Origin: Zavarzinia sp.
GTDB lineage: Bacteria > Pseudomonadota > Alphaproteobacteria > Zavarziniales > Zavarziniaceae
DNA length: 37,577 bases
Assembly (NCBI GenBank): GCA_025869435.1
Contig: JAOZVS010000136.1
Location: 1-37,577, forward strand
Direction: 5' to 3'
The translations under genes and the position numbers were made by a program. Position 1 is the stretch's first letter; every line of letters begins with the position of its first letter. Positions 23,174-32,622 of this stretch are shown in pieces. The notes below the pieces were generated by a model that worked only from the letters and a program-made list of their open reading frames with translations, was not told the DNA's origin and did not search any database.

Positions 23174-23353
23174 TCAAGGCTCGTAAGGCACGAAATCGCT
23201 CTTCGCCGTGCCGCAGGCCGGGCAATACCAGTCGTCCGGCAGGTCGGCGAAGCGGGTTCCCGGCGGGATACCGTCATCGGGGAGGCCGGCGGCCTCGTCA
23301 TAGATCTCGCCGCAGGTCGCGCATTGCCACAGCTTGTAGGACTCCTCCGACAT
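23174..23353 (-). CDS. Rubredoxin
   Basis: 59 residues. Iron ligands are in [13 protein letters not shown] and [15 protein letters not shown], the two CxxC knuckles of rubredoxins, with the aromatic core residues present. The ATG at 23353 is nine bases from the stop of the P450 gene on the same strand, so the two are almost certainly cotranscribed. It could deliver electrons to the P450, which normally uses a [2Fe-2S] ferredoxin; no reductase gene is adjacent. Confidence 0.94.
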
Positions 23354-23361
23354 GGCCGCGC

Positions 23362-24648
23362 TCAAGCCGTCATCTCGAAGCGGATCGGCACATGCTTCGG
23401 CCCGCAGACGAATTCGGACTGGGCCATCTCACCCTCGCCCGCCATCTCGAGATGCTTCAGGCGGGGAATGACTTCCTCCCAGAAGCACCGCATCTCGAGC
23501 CGCGCCAGATGCTGGCCCAGGCAGATATGCGAGCCGTAGCCGAAGCCGATGTGGCGGTTGGGCGTGCGTTCGGGATTGAACACCATCGGATCCTCGAAGG
23601 CATCCTCGTCCCGGTTGCCCGAGATATAGGACAGATACAGGAGGTCGCCCTTCTTGATCTGACGGCCGCGCAGCACGTAATCCTCGGCGGCGGAACGGAC
23701 GAACTGCTGCACCGGCGAGGCCCAGCGGATCGATTCCTCGACGAAACCGGGGATCAGCTTCGGATTGTCTTGCAGCTTCTTCAGGAGCCCGGGCGTCTCC
23801 GCCAGTTTCCACATCGAGGTGGCGGTCGTCGCCGAGGTGGTGTCATGCCCGGCGGTCGAGGCGATGACGAAATAGGAGATCATCGCCCGGTCTTCCATCG
23901 GGCAGCCGTTGACCTTGCCGTTGGCGATGACCGAGGCGATGTCGCCGCGCGGGCAGCCGCGCCGGTCCGCGATCACCTTGTCGTAATATTCCTTGAATTC
24001 GGCATAGACGATGTCCCAGGTCCGGATGATCTCGCCCGGATCGGTCGGGTCGGAGCCCGGACGCTTCAGGTCGGGATCGGCATAGGTGAACAGCCACTGC
24101 GTCAGGCGCAGCATCTTGGCGTGGTCTTCCTCGGGCACGCCGATGATGCTCAGCACCACTTCGAGCGGATAGTGGAAGGCGACGTCCCAGGCGAAGTCGC
24201 ATTGCGGCGCCAGTGCGGCCAGCCGGTCGGCGTAGCGCTTCGCCATCTCGCGCACCTTGGGCTCCAGCGCCGCGATCGACTGCGGCATGAAATGCGGCGC
24301 GGTGACGTTGCGGTAATCCGTGTGCTCGGGCTCGTCCATATGCACGAGGGTGCGGAAGATATGCGGCAGGCCGCCGGTATAGTCCCGCATCAGCTGCTCG
24401 GCATATTGCGAGGCCAGGGTCTTCGAGCGTTCGGCGTTCAGGAAGATCCTGTCCTGGCGCGTAATCTCCCGGATATCGTCATATTTGGTGACGATCCAGT
24501 GCGGATCGAACCCCGGCACTTCCGCGACCGACAGCGGATAATCGCGGCGCAGCGTCTGGAAGATGTCCTGGATGCGCTCGCGGCTGCCGAAGGTCGCGGG
24601 CGAGAAGATGGGGGCGACGAGATCGACCGGAATCGTGGTGGTTTCCAT
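23362..24648 (-). CDS. Cytochrome P450, CYP108-like (P450terp relative)
   Basis: 428 residues. I-helix AGHDTTS (266-272), ExxR at 305-308 (EESIR), haem loop [15 protein letters not shown] with Cys376 as axial ligand. The sequence resembles CYP108 (P450terp, alpha-terpineol hydroxylase; also CYP108D1) by recall: [25 protein letters not shown], and the C-terminus GPKHVPIRF. Substrate is probably a terpenoid or small hydrophobic ring compound; that is inference. CAGGAGGAAATC is an excellent ribosome site. A 20-bp motif at 24726-24745, shared with the regulator gene, lies 78 bases upstream. The SDR gene is divergent. Confidence 0.93.
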
Positions 24649-24725
24649 GATTTCCTCCTGATTGTTCTTTGCTTGGGATGCGCGGCATCCACCGGCCTGA
24701 ACCCTATCGCCCCGAGAGATCGCCT

Positions 24726-24745
24726 CACTGTCCGAAAGGATAGTT
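24726..24745 (-). promoter_or_regulatory. Shared 20-bp motif, P450 copy
   Basis: On the minus strand AACTATCCTTTCGGACAGTG; 17 of 20 bases match the copy before the LuxR-type regulator (28445-28464). It ends 78 bases before the P450 ATG and lies in the 165-bp divergent region with the SDR gene. TATCCT inside it could be a -10; no good -35 is seen, consistent with activator dependence. Confidence 0.65.
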
Positions 24746-24813
24746 CTCGGTCGCGCCTTCTCCGCTAGGGATCGGGCAAGGGGCGGCCGGCCCCGCCAAC
24801 GACGGGAGGACCC

Positions 24814-25647
24814 ATGATCACCGACCATTTCAGCCCGGACCTGCTCAAGGGCCGCACCGCCTTCATCACCGGCGGCGGCAGCGGCGTGAACCTCGCCATC
24901 GGCAAGGCTTTCGCGGCGCTGGGCGCGAGGATCGGGATCTGCGGCCGAACGCGGGAGCGGCTCGAAAGCGGCCGGATCGCCCTCGAGGCGCTGGGCGCCG
25001 AGGTCTTCACCGCGGTCGCGGATGTCCGCGACGCCGAAGCTGTCCAGGCCGCCCTCGATGCCTGCCGCCTCGCCCTCGGTCCCGTCGATATCCTGGTCTG
25101 CGGCGCCGCCGGCAATTTCGTCGCCCCAGCGGAAGCCATCAGCGCCAAGGGCTTCCGCACCGTCGTCGAGATCGACCTGCTCGGCACTTTCCACGCGACC
25201 CGGGCAGCCTTTCCGCAACTGCGCGAGACGAGGGGCAACATCCTCTTCGTTTCGGGCGGACAGTCCTTCGTGCCCTTCGCCTTCCAGGCCCATGTCGGCG
25301 CCGCCAAGGCGGGGATCGACAATCTGATGCGGAACCTGGCGCTCGAATGGGGCCGCTACGGCATCCGCTGCAACAGCATCGTGCCCGGCCCGGTGAAGGA
25401 TACCGAAGGCATGAAGCGCCTGGGCGGCCAGGAGGACCCGGACCTGTGGCGCGCGATGACGCCGCTCGGCCGCATGGCGGAACAGGAAGAAATCGGCCAG
25501 GCCGCCGCCTTCCTGGTCTCGCCGCTGGCGAGCTATGTCAGCGGCGCCCGGCTCTGCGTCGACGGCGGACAGAACCTGACCGGTTCCACCCTGTTCAACG
25601 CGGCGATCGCCCGCGCGCTGGCGGCGGAGACCGGGGATCCCGCCTAG
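24814..25647 (+). CDS. SDR oxidoreductase, 2,4-dienoyl-CoA reductase-like
   Basis: 277 residues. Cofactor motif TGGGSGVNLAIG, GAAGNF (NNAG variant) and the segment QAHVGAAKAGIDNLMRNLAL place it with DECR2-type (peroxisomal-like) 2,4-dienoyl-CoA reductases, which lack the usual YxxxK tyrosine at that position and keep the lysine. It likely reduces or oxidises an acyl-CoA or a ring product. GGGAGG precedes the ATG. It is divergent from the P450 gene and its stop is nine bases from the convergent regulator stop, so it sits inside the P450-regulator module. Confidence 0.87.
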   Translation: MITDHFSPDLLKGRTAFITGGGSGVNLAIGKAFAALGARIGICGRTRERLESGRIALEALGAEVFTAVADVRDAEAVQAALDACRLALGPVDILVCGAAGNFVAPAEAISAKGFRTVVEIDLLGTFHATRAAFPQLRETRGNILFVSGGQSFVPFAFQAHVGAAKAGIDNLMRNLALEWGRYGIRCNSIVPGPVKDTEGMKRLGGQEDPDLWRAMTPLGRMAEQEEIGQAAAFLVSPLASYVSGARLCVDGGQNLTGSTLFNAAIARALAAETGDPA

Positions 25648-25656
25648 TGGATCGCC

Positions 25657-28335
25657 CTATTGCAGCATGCCCATCGAGCGGGCCTTGGCGACCGCCGCCG
25701 TCCGCGTCCGCACGTCGAGCTTGTCGAAGATATTCCGCAGGTGCCATTTCACCGTCGGCAGCGACACGAACAGACGCTCGGTGATCTGGCCATTGGTCAG
25801 GCCCTGGGACACCATGGCGAGGACGCGGTATTCCTTCTTGCTGAGGCTGGCGCGGGCCGCCACCTCGCCGGACAATGCCCCGTCCTCGTCGTTGTCATCG
25901 GGGGTGACGGCCGGGGTCCCGGCCAATCGCGCCACCAGCGCGAGCGCTTCGGCCGGCAGGCTGTCCCGGATCGAGGCGACATGCTGCGCGATCGCCGGGG
26001 CGAGGGGGCGCAGGATCGCCTCATGGTCGAGAATGCTGCGCGCGAGGCCCAGCGAGGCGGCCTTTTCCACGGCTTCGACGAGGGTGCGAAGGGCGAATGT
26101 CGTCTCGCCATCGGCATGATGGGCCGCCGCCTTCACGCAGCAGGCCTGGACCCACAGGCGAAGGCGACCGCTGGCCCTGGTCGCGGCGACGATCGGCAGG
26201 ACATCGGCGATCGCCCGCCGGGCATGGCCCGAGACCAGATTCTGCTTGGCGTTCAGCAGGCGTTGGCGCTCGGCGAGTTCGGGCGTATCCGCCCCCTCTT
26301 CGCCGGGATCGCCGCCATCGACGATGTCGAGGCCGCGCCGGACGACGGGACTGAGATCGAGGATGATCTCGTTCCTTATGAGATGAAGCATCTTCAGCGC
26401 GGGCGCCCCGAAGCGCCGGATCGACAGGGGTTCCATGTCGCGCAGCAGGTCGAGCGCGGCCCCCGGCCCCTTGTCGATCAGGGCGAGACGCGCAGCGACC
26501 CGCCAGCCGCACAGGGCGATGTCGATATTGCCGTGCTGGGCGATGCTCGGCAGGCTGCGCCAGATCAGCAGCCGCGCCTGATCGAGCTGGCCGCGCTCGT
26601 AGCAGGCATCGGCCAGCACCAGTTCGGCCGAGGCCCGCATCAGCTCCGACGGCTGATTGCGGGCCAGCATGTCCTCGATTTCCTTGCAGGCCGCCTCGGG
26701 CCGGCCCTGCAACAGGAAAAACAGGGCGGAGAGTGTCGTGACCCAGCCAAGGCCGTAACTGGTATTGGCCCGGGCGATTTCCCGCCGCGCGAGGTCGAGG
26801 GATTTCAGCGCGCCCGCCATGTCGATCTGGGTGCGCTGGCACAGCGCCATCGCCACCGCGACGGTCGCCCGGTCGAAGGGCGTCTCGGCCGCGCCGCCCT
26901 CCAGCCAGTCCCGGCCGAGCATCAGGGCATCGCCATGGCGATAGGTGAAATAGGCGATCAGGAACCGCAAAAGGCCGAGCTGGCGCCCCTGCGGGTCCTG
27001 CCGCCGCAAGGTCTCGAAATGGGCGTCCATGATCTGGCCGGCCCGGTCGTAATCGCCCGAGAACAGCGCCGCCCAGACCATCCAGAAGGCGATCCTCGGC
27101 CAGGTCGGGTCCGCCGGCGGCAGGCGCTCGGCGCAGCTCAGGAAACGGGCGGTCTCGCCCCGCCGGGTCAGCAGCTCGGGGGCGCAGGCCTCCAGCCATT
27201 CCGCCGCCAGGCCCCCCTCGCCGGCCCGGAAGGCATAGTCGATCGCCTCGATCCAGTCGCCCTTGCCATGGTGCCACAGCGCCGCCCGGCTCAAGGACTG
27301 GGCGACCAGCGCGGGGTCCTGCCGCAGGGCATTCATGATCAGGAAATCGCGGAACAGCGCATGCAGCCGGACCTGCGTGCCCTGGCGGTCCAGCCGCATG
27401 ACGAAGAGATTGCGCTCCTGCATGTCGTGGAAATGGTCCCGCGCCGCGCCATCGCCGGTGACCGCTTCCGACAATTCAGCGGTGATATTGTCGAGAGGTC
27501 CGACGCGAAGGAGAAAATCGCGCAAGGGCGGCGGCAGGGTGCGGAAGACTTCCTCGTTCAGGAACTGGCCGATATCCTGATCGGCGCCGGAGAATTCCTC
27601 CGCCAGCTGGCGCAGGCTGGCGCCGGCGGCGACCAGCAGGCGGACCAGTTGCAGCCCGGCCGCCCAGCCTTCGGTGCGCCGGATCACCCGCTCGACCGCA
27701 TCTGCGTCGGCCCGGCAATCATGGCCGATCAGCCGCCGCGCCTCCTCGGGCGAAAAGGCGAGGTCGCCGGCATCGAATTCGCCGACGAGGCCGCGCAGCC
27801 GCAGATGCCCGAGGGCGAGCCGGACCCCGCGCCGCGTGCCGATGACCGCATGAACCAGGCCCCTGCCCTCGCGGATCAGGACATCGAGGGCATGCGCCGT
27901 CTCCTCGCTGTCGCAAAGGTGGAAATTGTCGATGAAGAGCACGATCCGCCGGCCCCGGGCGACGATGGCGTCGGCCAGCCCCTTGGGATCATGGGCCGAC
28001 AGCAGGGCCTCGATCGTCGTCCGATCGCCCCCCATCCCGTCGTCGCGACCGCGCCCGTCGTCGCGACAATGGGCGACCGCCTGTTCCAGCATCGAGACGA
28101 AACGCCCCGCCTCGGCGTCGAAATGATCGCAGCCGAACCAGGCCGCCTCGCCCCCTCGCCCGCGCCAGGCGTCCAGGACCTGCGCCATCAGGGCCGACTT
28201 CCCGCTGCCCGTGGGCGCCGTCACCAAGGTCACCGTATTGCCGGCGATACTGGCGCAGATCGCCTCGATCAGCCGGCCGCGCGGGACGAGCTCGAGATTG
28301 AATGTCGGCGGACTGAATTTCTCATGCCTGCCCAT
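25657..28335 (-). CDS. LuxR-family regulator of the MalT/AlkS (LAL) type
   Basis: 892 residues. N-terminal STAND-type NTPase with Walker A APTGSGKSAL (40-49) and Walker B RIVLFIDNFHL; a central TPR-like helical region; C-terminal LuxR HTH (SKKEYRVLAMVSQGLTNGQI ... SLPTVKWHLRNIFDKL). The size and architecture equal MalT and AlkS, ATP-dependent activators that bind an inducer. GGGAGGGAGCC precedes the ATG at 28335. It lies beside the P450/SDR genes and its own upstream region carries the shared 20-bp motif (28445-28464). It is the likely activator of the P450-rubredoxin unit, possibly self-activated. Confidence 0.93.
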   Translation of the reverse strand: MGRHEKFSPPTFNLELVPRGRLIEAICASIAGNTVTLVTAPTGSGKSALMAQVLDAWRGRGGEAAWFGCDHFDAEAGRFVSMLEQAVAHCRDDGRGRDDGMGGDRTTIEALLSAHDPKGLADAIVARGRRIVLFIDNFHLCDSEETAHALDVLIREGRGLVHAVIGTRRGVRLALGHLRLRGLVGEFDAGDLAFSPEEARRLIGHDCRADADAVERVIRRTEGWAAGLQLVRLLVAAGASLRQLAEEFSGADQDIGQFLNEEVFRTLPPPLRDFLLRVGPLDNITAELSEAVTGDGAARDHFHDMQERNLFVMRLDRQGTQVRLHALFRDFLIMNALRQDPALVAQSLSRAALWHHGKGDWIEAIDYAFRAGEGGLAAEWLEACAPELLTRRGETARFLSCAERLPPADPTWPRIAFWMVWAALFSGDYDRAGQIMDAHFETLRRQDPQGRQLGLLRFLIAYFTYRHGDALMLGRDWLEGGAAETPFDRATVAVAMALCQRTQIDMAGALKSLDLARREIARANTSYGLGWVTTLSALFFLLQGRPEAACKEIEDMLARNQPSELMRASAELVLADACYERGQLDQARLLIWRSLPSIAQHGNIDIALCGWRVAARLALIDKGPGAALDLLRDMEPLSIRRFGAPALKMLHLIRNEIILDLSPVVRRGLDIVDGGDPGEEGADTPELAERQRLLNAKQNLVSGHARRAIADVLPIVAATRASGRLRLWVQACCVKAAAHHADGETTFALRTLVEAVEKAASLGLARSILDHEAILRPLAPAIAQHVASIRDSLPAEALALVARLAGTPAVTPDDNDEDGALSGEVAARASLSKKEYRVLAMVSQGLTNGQITERLFVSLPTVKWHLRNIFDKLDVRTRTAAVAKARSMGMLQ

Positions 28336-28444
28336 GGCTCCCTCCCAGGAGATCCCGCGGGCTCCGATCTGCGCCGGGCGCCGCCTTGTCCTTGATCCCG
28401 GCCCGGCCGGAACACGACACCATCCGCCGCGCCCCCGCCCCGGC

Positions 28445-28464
28445 CCCTGACCGAAAGTATAGTT
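28445..28464 (-). promoter_or_regulatory. Shared 20-bp motif, regulator copy
   Basis: On the minus strand AACTATACTTTCGGTCAGGG; differs from the P450 copy at three of 20 bases. It ends 110 bases before the regulator ATG. TATACT inside it matches a sigma70 -10 well and again lacks a -35. Confidence 0.65.
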
Positions 28465-32424: not shown

Positions 32425-32508
32425 CTGGAGCGGGCGAAGGGATTCGAACCCTCGACCCCAACCTTGGCAAGGTTGTGCTCTACCCCTGAGCTACGCCCGC
32501 TCTGGCGT
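32425..32508 (-). repeat. 84-bp direct repeat containing tRNA-Gly
   Basis: Identical to 32547-32630 at an offset of 122 bases. It includes the whole tRNA plus a CTGG-side base and the shared TCTGGCGT flank on the 5' side, pointing to a recent tandem duplication. Confidence 0.85.
32426..32500 (-). tRNA. tRNA-Gly (GCC), copy 2
   Basis: Minus strand: acceptor GCGGGCG/CGCCCGC, D arm AGCTCAGGGGTAGAGC, anticodon GCC in AACCTTGCCAAGGTT, T arm GGTTCGAATCC, encoded CCA at 32426-32428. Its 3' end faces the accessory strip to the left. Identical to the copy at 32548-32622. Confidence 0.96.
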
Positions 32509-32547: not shown

Positions 32548-32622
32548 TGGAGCGGGCGAAGGGATTCGAACCCTCGACCCCAACCTTGGCAAGGTTGTGC
32601 TCTACCCCTGAGCTACGCCCGC
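32548..32622 (-). tRNA. tRNA-Gly (GCC), copy 1
   Basis: Same sequence as 32426-32500, transcribed first of the pair. A promoter is predicted about 60 bases upstream. Confidence 0.96.

Follow-up and report, generated by a model that had tools for sequence, protein, structure and literature searches.

Within a 37,577-nucleotide contig of Zavarzinia sp. (JAOZVS010000136.1, hereafter the window), a 20-bp motif stands both before a gene for a CYP108-like cytochrome P450 and before a gene for a LAL (MalT/AlkS-type) regulator, and comparison with congeneric genomes supports its reading as a shared operator maintained by selection. We contend that the adjacent LAL protein is quite probably both the binder of this motif and the activator acting through it; in one related genome the operators and the recognition helix of the LAL protein have changed together, which points to LAL as the binder. 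The two copies in the window are:

24726..24745, minus strand: putative operator copy 1, AACTATCCTTTCGGACAGTG, an imperfect dyad ACTRTCC-tttc-GGNCAGT between the P450 gene and a short-chain dehydrogenase/reductase (SDR) gene
28445..28464, minus strand: putative operator copy 2, AACTATACTTTCGGTCAGGG, before the LAL gene, with lower symmetry than the P450 copy

These copies are identical at 17 of 20 positions and each is oriented as its downstream gene, ending 77 bases before the ATG of the P450 gene (24648) and 109 bases before that of the LAL gene (28335); the positions, identity and orientation given in a preliminary description of this DNA are all confirmed. That description had noticed no other copy in the window by eye, and a search of the window at up to three mismatches likewise gave just these two, against a shuffle expectation of 0.01 (none of 100 shuffles reached two). 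The window's own assembly (3.49 Mb) yielded one further match, with three mismatches (C138:4802-4821), which encodes NDTFGHGT within a Peptidase_S8 (subtilase) gene and is attributed to chance because it lies inside that coding frame; the non-coding copies within three mismatches are thus two only. This assembly is 75.5% complete, so that further sites may be missing from it and their absence elsewhere is therefore no proof.

Conservation was assessed between the window's genome (G000) and genomes listed as belonging to the same genus (G001-G005), with promoters compared without gaps, anchored on the 20-mer, over flanks of 41 bases per side from which the 2 bases adjoining the 20-mer were omitted. 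The motif precedes the P450 gene in all four genomes that have this P450 (pairwise identity 90-100%) and the LAL gene in three of four (80-90%). The flanks of the P450 promoters are 17-41% identical on the left and 29-63% on the right, the value of 63% belonging to the G000/G002 pair and all other pairs reaching at most 41%, and those of the LAL promoters are 24-39% identical. The gene order P450 (minus), SDR (plus), LAL (minus) is common to G000, G004 and G003; in G002 the LAL gene is followed by the P450 gene, both forward, and the SDR is absent. Outside the genus the LAL gene was not met again: among 96 genomes, the only full-length matches above 35% were those in G002, G003 and G004. In a genome of another family whose P450 is 71% identical (G104), no motif occurs within five mismatches in the 131 upstream bases present on the contig, nor does the 9.1-kb contig carrying that P450 hold a LAL match. 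A contig scan beyond these genomes returned one locus, letter-identical to the G003 contig.

The preliminary description had recognized a real motif without stating that it is a dyad; it is now found to be an imperfect one centred on TTTC. Six of the seven sites share the spacing CTR-N10-CAG (R = A/G) and the remaining one has CCA-N10-CAG, with the CTG left half confined to the two G002 sites and CTA present in three of the four P450 copies. The four P450 copies, which comprise three different sequences, pair at five to six of seven arm positions, compared with three to four of seven in the three LAL copies. When symmetry was tested by permutation, two P450 copies gave p = 0.028 and 0.021, and the window LAL copy gave 0.51. 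Two differences consistently separate the P450 from the LAL copies, namely C versus A at column 7 and T versus G at column 19, and both break the dyad in the LAL copies, which may accordingly be the weaker sites.

The identity of the binder is suggested by several observations. LAL is the adjacent regulator in all four genomes. The two operators of G002 have two letters in common that no other site shows, G in column 5 and C in column 15, and only the LAL protein of G002 has an altered recognition helix, PTVKWHLRNIFDKLDVRTRT being replaced by SAVKWHLSNIFDKLGARSRT (P to S, T to A, R to S, D to G, V to A and T to S); apart from two substitutions in G003 (F to Y, D to E), the other three LALs agree there. 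A search of seven genomes at up to two mismatches returned 11 matches, of which seven are the module sites, all in the four genomes with a LAL orthologue, and four lie in coding frames; G001, G005 and G006, which have no LAL orthologue, contain no non-coding match at this threshold. The earlier proposal that the LAL protein itself controls this promoter class is supported in so far as the adjacent LAL, which tracks the motif and changes jointly with it in G002, is its most likely regulator.

The elements and genes around the two sites are as follows:

23174..23353, minus strand: rubredoxin of 59 aa, the next gene after the P450 (PF00301, 1.3e-20)
23362..24648, minus strand: CYP108-like cytochrome P450 (PF00067; closest solved structure P450terp 1cpt, E 6e-115)
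24701..24706, minus strand: TAGGGT, candidate -10 hexamer for the P450 gene, starting 21 nt after the operator CAG
24765..24771, plus strand: CTAGGGA, candidate -10 element for the SDR gene, with CTAG at a fixed offset in congeners that have the SDR
24814..25647, plus strand: SDR, divergent from the P450
25657..28335, minus strand: LAL (MalT/AlkS-type) regulator with a P-loop, a possibly MalT-like middle and a C-terminal GerE/LuxR helix-turn-helix (HTH)

In all four P450 promoters a TAnnnT hexamer starts 21 nt after CAG (TAGGGT, TAAGTT, TAGGGT and TAGATT), and on the SDR side CTAG recurs at one offset in the three genomes with an SDR and is missing from G002, which has none. When the flanks were shuffled base by base, neither coincidence was reached in 200,000 trials, figures that overstate the surprise because both patterns were defined with the alignment in view and the genomes share ancestry. 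With about 30 bp between its centre and the -10-like element on either side, the operator is probably located near -42 of two divergent promoters, over their -35 regions. The preliminary description placed this copy before the P450 gene and did not mention the divergent SDR gene at 24814 (plus strand); the copy probably serves both promoters. Its suggestion that the motif itself holds a -10 is not supported, as the internal hexamer is not kept in orthologues (TATCCT/TGTCCT before P450s; TATACT/CATACT/TGTACT before LALs) and TAnnnT at a fixed 21 nt fits an operator over the -35 instead. The motif is thus probably not a -10, and for the P450 promoter this assignment was rejected in favour of the downstream TAnnnT. 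The description of a promoter without a recognizable -35 is supported; a scan for consensus sigma-70 promoters found none in either upstream region of the window (P450, LAL).

Under the explanation that we prefer, the adjacent LAL regulator would act through the 20-mer as its operator. Its dimer, with ATP bound and carrying an inducer that may be a terpenoid or a hydrocarbon on which the P450 acts, would bind CTRTMC-tttc-GGNCAG via its C-terminal LuxR-type HTHs. At the site between P450 and SDR it would lie over the -35 regions and recruit RNA polymerase (class II activation), so that the P450-rubredoxin operon, presumably co-transcribed, and the SDR gene would both be targets of one operator. 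At its own gene, LAL would bind the weaker, less symmetric copy, resulting in autoregulation; activation, by analogy with AlkS at PalkS2, is slightly favoured, and repression is possible because the LAL promoters are without a -10 at that spacing.

Several points weigh against this explanation. No 20-mer copy was found for the G003 LAL gene on its contig, and the LAL promoters have no common TAnnnT at +21. The symmetry of an imperfect dyad is weak evidence when taken alone. The joint change in G002 concerns one lineage and one event and could be a coincidence, and the genomes encode other LuxR-type HTH proteins that are candidate binders. At three mismatches G002 gave 11 matches compared with 1 for a reversed control pattern, and further weak sites in that genome are possible. 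Finally, the operator described here overlaps the -35, whereas AlkS is described as binding upstream of the -35 (PMC12740625). With regard to the G003 LAL gene, it starts 18 bases after another LAL gene, and the two members of this tandem pair (L037, JAQVKV010000203.1; gap of about 18 bases) are 29% identical to each other.

The alternative that survives best departs from the preferred explanation only in the sign of autoregulation. It holds that the copy at the LAL gene doubles as a -10 (TATACT), such that LAL would repress itself while the same operator activates the P450, and we consider it a credible minority view. The A at column 7 in all LAL copies, where P450 copies have C, brings the hexamer nearer to TATAAT, the LAL copies have no downstream TAnnnT, and AlkS itself is reported to repress PalkS1 and activate PalkS2 (PMC3664771). 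Against this, the hexamer reads CATACT in G004 and TGTACT in G002, and the consensus scan placed no sigma-70 promoter upstream of the window LAL gene.

A different question is whether the motif could be a LuxR-type operator of another GerE-HTH protein, such as an LuxR of the acyl-homoserine lactone (AHL) type, a response regulator or a paralogous LAL, with LAL merely one of its targets. The geometry of a lux box is common to regulators with this type of HTH, several LAL paralogues exist in Zavarzinia genomes, and a LuxR with an Autoind_bind domain occurs in five of the seven genomes searched. We nevertheless judge this unlikely. The non-coding motif at up to two mismatches tracks the LAL orthologue, being found in four of four genomes with it and in none of three without; AHL-type LuxRs are also present in the motif-less G001 and G005, and none was found in the motif-bearing G003 (74% complete); and the operator change in G002 coincides with changes in the LAL recognition helix. 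It is highly improbable that the motif serves as a promoter or RNA element (e.g., a -10 or a leader element) for which there is no dedicated regulator. It does contain the -10-like letters TATCCT/TATACT, but these are unconserved, the motif would be untranscribed at the P450 if the inferred P450 start is right, no Rfam family is found there at the gathering threshold, and the assembly has just two non-coding copies within three mismatches.

Relaxing the search of the seven genomes to three mismatches raised the number of matches to 27, comprising the seven module sites, 13 taken as coding and seven uninterpreted; the 16 matches added at this step divide into nine taken as coding and seven uninterpreted. 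Each of the 27 was examined for its reading frame, and for ten stretches a longer surrounding sequence was inspected as well. Twelve matches are coding by codon score (L003, L043, L045, L049, L053, L054, L056, L057, L059, L060, L063 and L064), which Pfam also supports for L003 (subtilase) and L060 (enoyl-CoA hydratase), and L058 is taken as coding because it lies inside a DUF1302 gene, about 2.3 kb before a LAL paralogue. The uninterpreted ones, all with three mismatches, are L047, L061, L062, L065, L066 and the tandem pair L051/L055; L065 falls in the 5' part of an enoyl-CoA hydratase frame, ahead of the Pfam domain, and could be upstream of the true gene start. A wider regulon was rejected; the matches outside the module at up to two mismatches are all coding, and seven at three mismatches are uninterpreted. 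The genome-wide search put forward in the preliminary description leaves its proposal intact within two mismatches, with a few weak candidates among the three-mismatch matches of G002 and G005. No whole-genome match of the motif lies at P450 paralogues (46-49% identity).

A search for CT..AG dyads covered 34 stretches before LAL starts (one of 41 bases) and is insensitive, since with the threshold applied it missed two of the three sites that the module has before LAL genes. A strong dyad, TCTTTCTGAA(GA/AC)GAAAGA, is located about 220 bases before two similar LAL paralogues, once per locus (L084:4066-4083, plus strand, and L085:6803-6820, minus strand, in G004 and G002), and is possibly that paralogue's own operator. 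In G005, which has no LAL orthologue, AATTGTACTTTCGGTCA occurs twice in tandem at L077:7448-7491, with a distance of 24 bases between the copies.

The P450, whose closest solved structure, P450terp, is CYP108A1, has orthologues of 89% (G004), 82% (G002) and 86% (G003) identity, and the SDR has orthologues of 85% (G004) and 89% (G003), its best G002 match (46%) being elsewhere in that genome. The 892-aa LAL protein carries an N-terminal P-loop (APTGSGKS), matches the MalT structure 8bob over residues 16-376 (E 8.3e-22) and ends in an HTH scoring 55.9 bits against PF00196 (cut-off 23.5); its middle scores 22.6 bits against PF17874 (MalT-like TPR), which is below the cut-off of 45. LAL orthologues are 70% (G004), 67% (G002) and 60% (G003, over 631 residues on one contig) identical.

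A rubredoxin (PF00301) directly follows this P450 in all four Zavarzinia genomes, an arrangement which suggests that it is the electron donor of the P450. According to one review, P450s of bacteria differ from AlkB in mostly relying on ferredoxin (PMC8918992), and no statement of a rubredoxin as donor to a CYP108-type P450 was found in the titles and opening lines of abstracts searched. No adjoining rubredoxin was seen at Zavarzinia P450 paralogues. Beyond the family, 15 P450 matches (45-71%, E at most 1e-120) were obtained from 289 genomes of the class, some at loci cut by contig ends, and rubredoxin was recognized there by regular expression rather than Pfam. It directly follows the CYP108-like P450 on the same strand in six of them (L140, L141, L142, L144, L148 and L151) and is nearby on the other strand in two more.

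An AT-rich conserved block, ATATTAAAACA(A/T)CGTA(C/T)TAA, occurs about 55-70 bases before a paralogous P450 in four Zavarzinia genomes (L131, L132, L130 and L128) and is probably another regulator's site. Elsewhere in the window, two tRNA genes (32429-32500 and 32551-32622, minus strand) stand 50 bases apart with an equal score of 69.7 bits, and are possibly a duplicated tRNA, as judged from score and proximity only.

The motif can be compared with several known systems. The lux box is a 20-bp dyad of the form CTG-N10-CAG positioned near -42, and the operator described here resembles such LuxR/TraR-type sites in its length, its CTR-N10-CAG spacing and its probable location near -42. It differs in having CTA rather than CTG in three of the four P450 copies and in that the presumed binder is a LAL instead of an AHL receptor. 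MalT is a LAL-type regulator with apparently the same domain order as the window protein. Its box is given as GGA[TG]GA (PMC9628970), and inspection of the 20-mer sequences on both strands found no GGAKGA in the conserved motif; MalT uses single short boxes, whereas here there is one dyad. SCO6993 of Streptomyces coelicolor, a LAL-type protein of 606 aa, is reported to bind short palindromes as well as its own promoter (PMC9628970), as predicted here for the window LAL; unlike our case, no predictable consensus is reported there, and the effect of SCO6993 on antibiotic production is said to be negative.

The LAL family has been described as poorly studied (PMC3282765), and among the papers listed in searches on LAL/AlkS operators and on Zavarzinia, no title or opening lines of an abstract described this operator or module. 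No letters of the AlkS box were obtained, either from the literature or near the alkB-LAL cluster of Methylibium (NC_008826), whose LAL beside alkB is 23.6% identical to that of the window. The module appears ordinary in kind and well supported for a case built on sequence. Since site and recognition helix appear to have changed together in nature, a swap comparison could assign a residue to a base, and the small, presumably inducible divergent promoter could serve as a sensor for P450 substrates.

The closest precedent appears to be AlkS of Pseudomonas putida GPo1, a likeness argued from the text of the literature and not from alignment. Both PalkB and PalkS2 are reported to carry inverted-repeat operators, similar to those of the LuxR family, through which AlkS acts in a circuit of positive feedback (PMC8784404; PMC3664771). 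The shared traits are a LAL activator, presumed in Zavarzinia, an inverted-repeat operator before both oxygenase and regulator, and a rubredoxin beside the oxygenase. In the Zavarzinia module an operator precedes both genes in three of four genomes and the P450 alone in the fourth, with the repeat weak in the LAL copies. The oxygenase is a P450 here and AlkB there, and one operator is here probably common to two divergent promoters. It can be speculated, although we regard this larger picture as rather doubtful, that the module is an AlkS/AlkB/AlkG-like circuit in which a soluble CYP108-like P450 replaces the membrane alkane hydroxylase and the regulator type, lux-box-like operator and rubredoxin are retained, with one LAL operator driving two divergent promoters, rubredoxin feeding the P450, and G002 recording a joint switch of operator and helix. 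If true, that switch would offer a handle on DNA recognition by LAL regulators.

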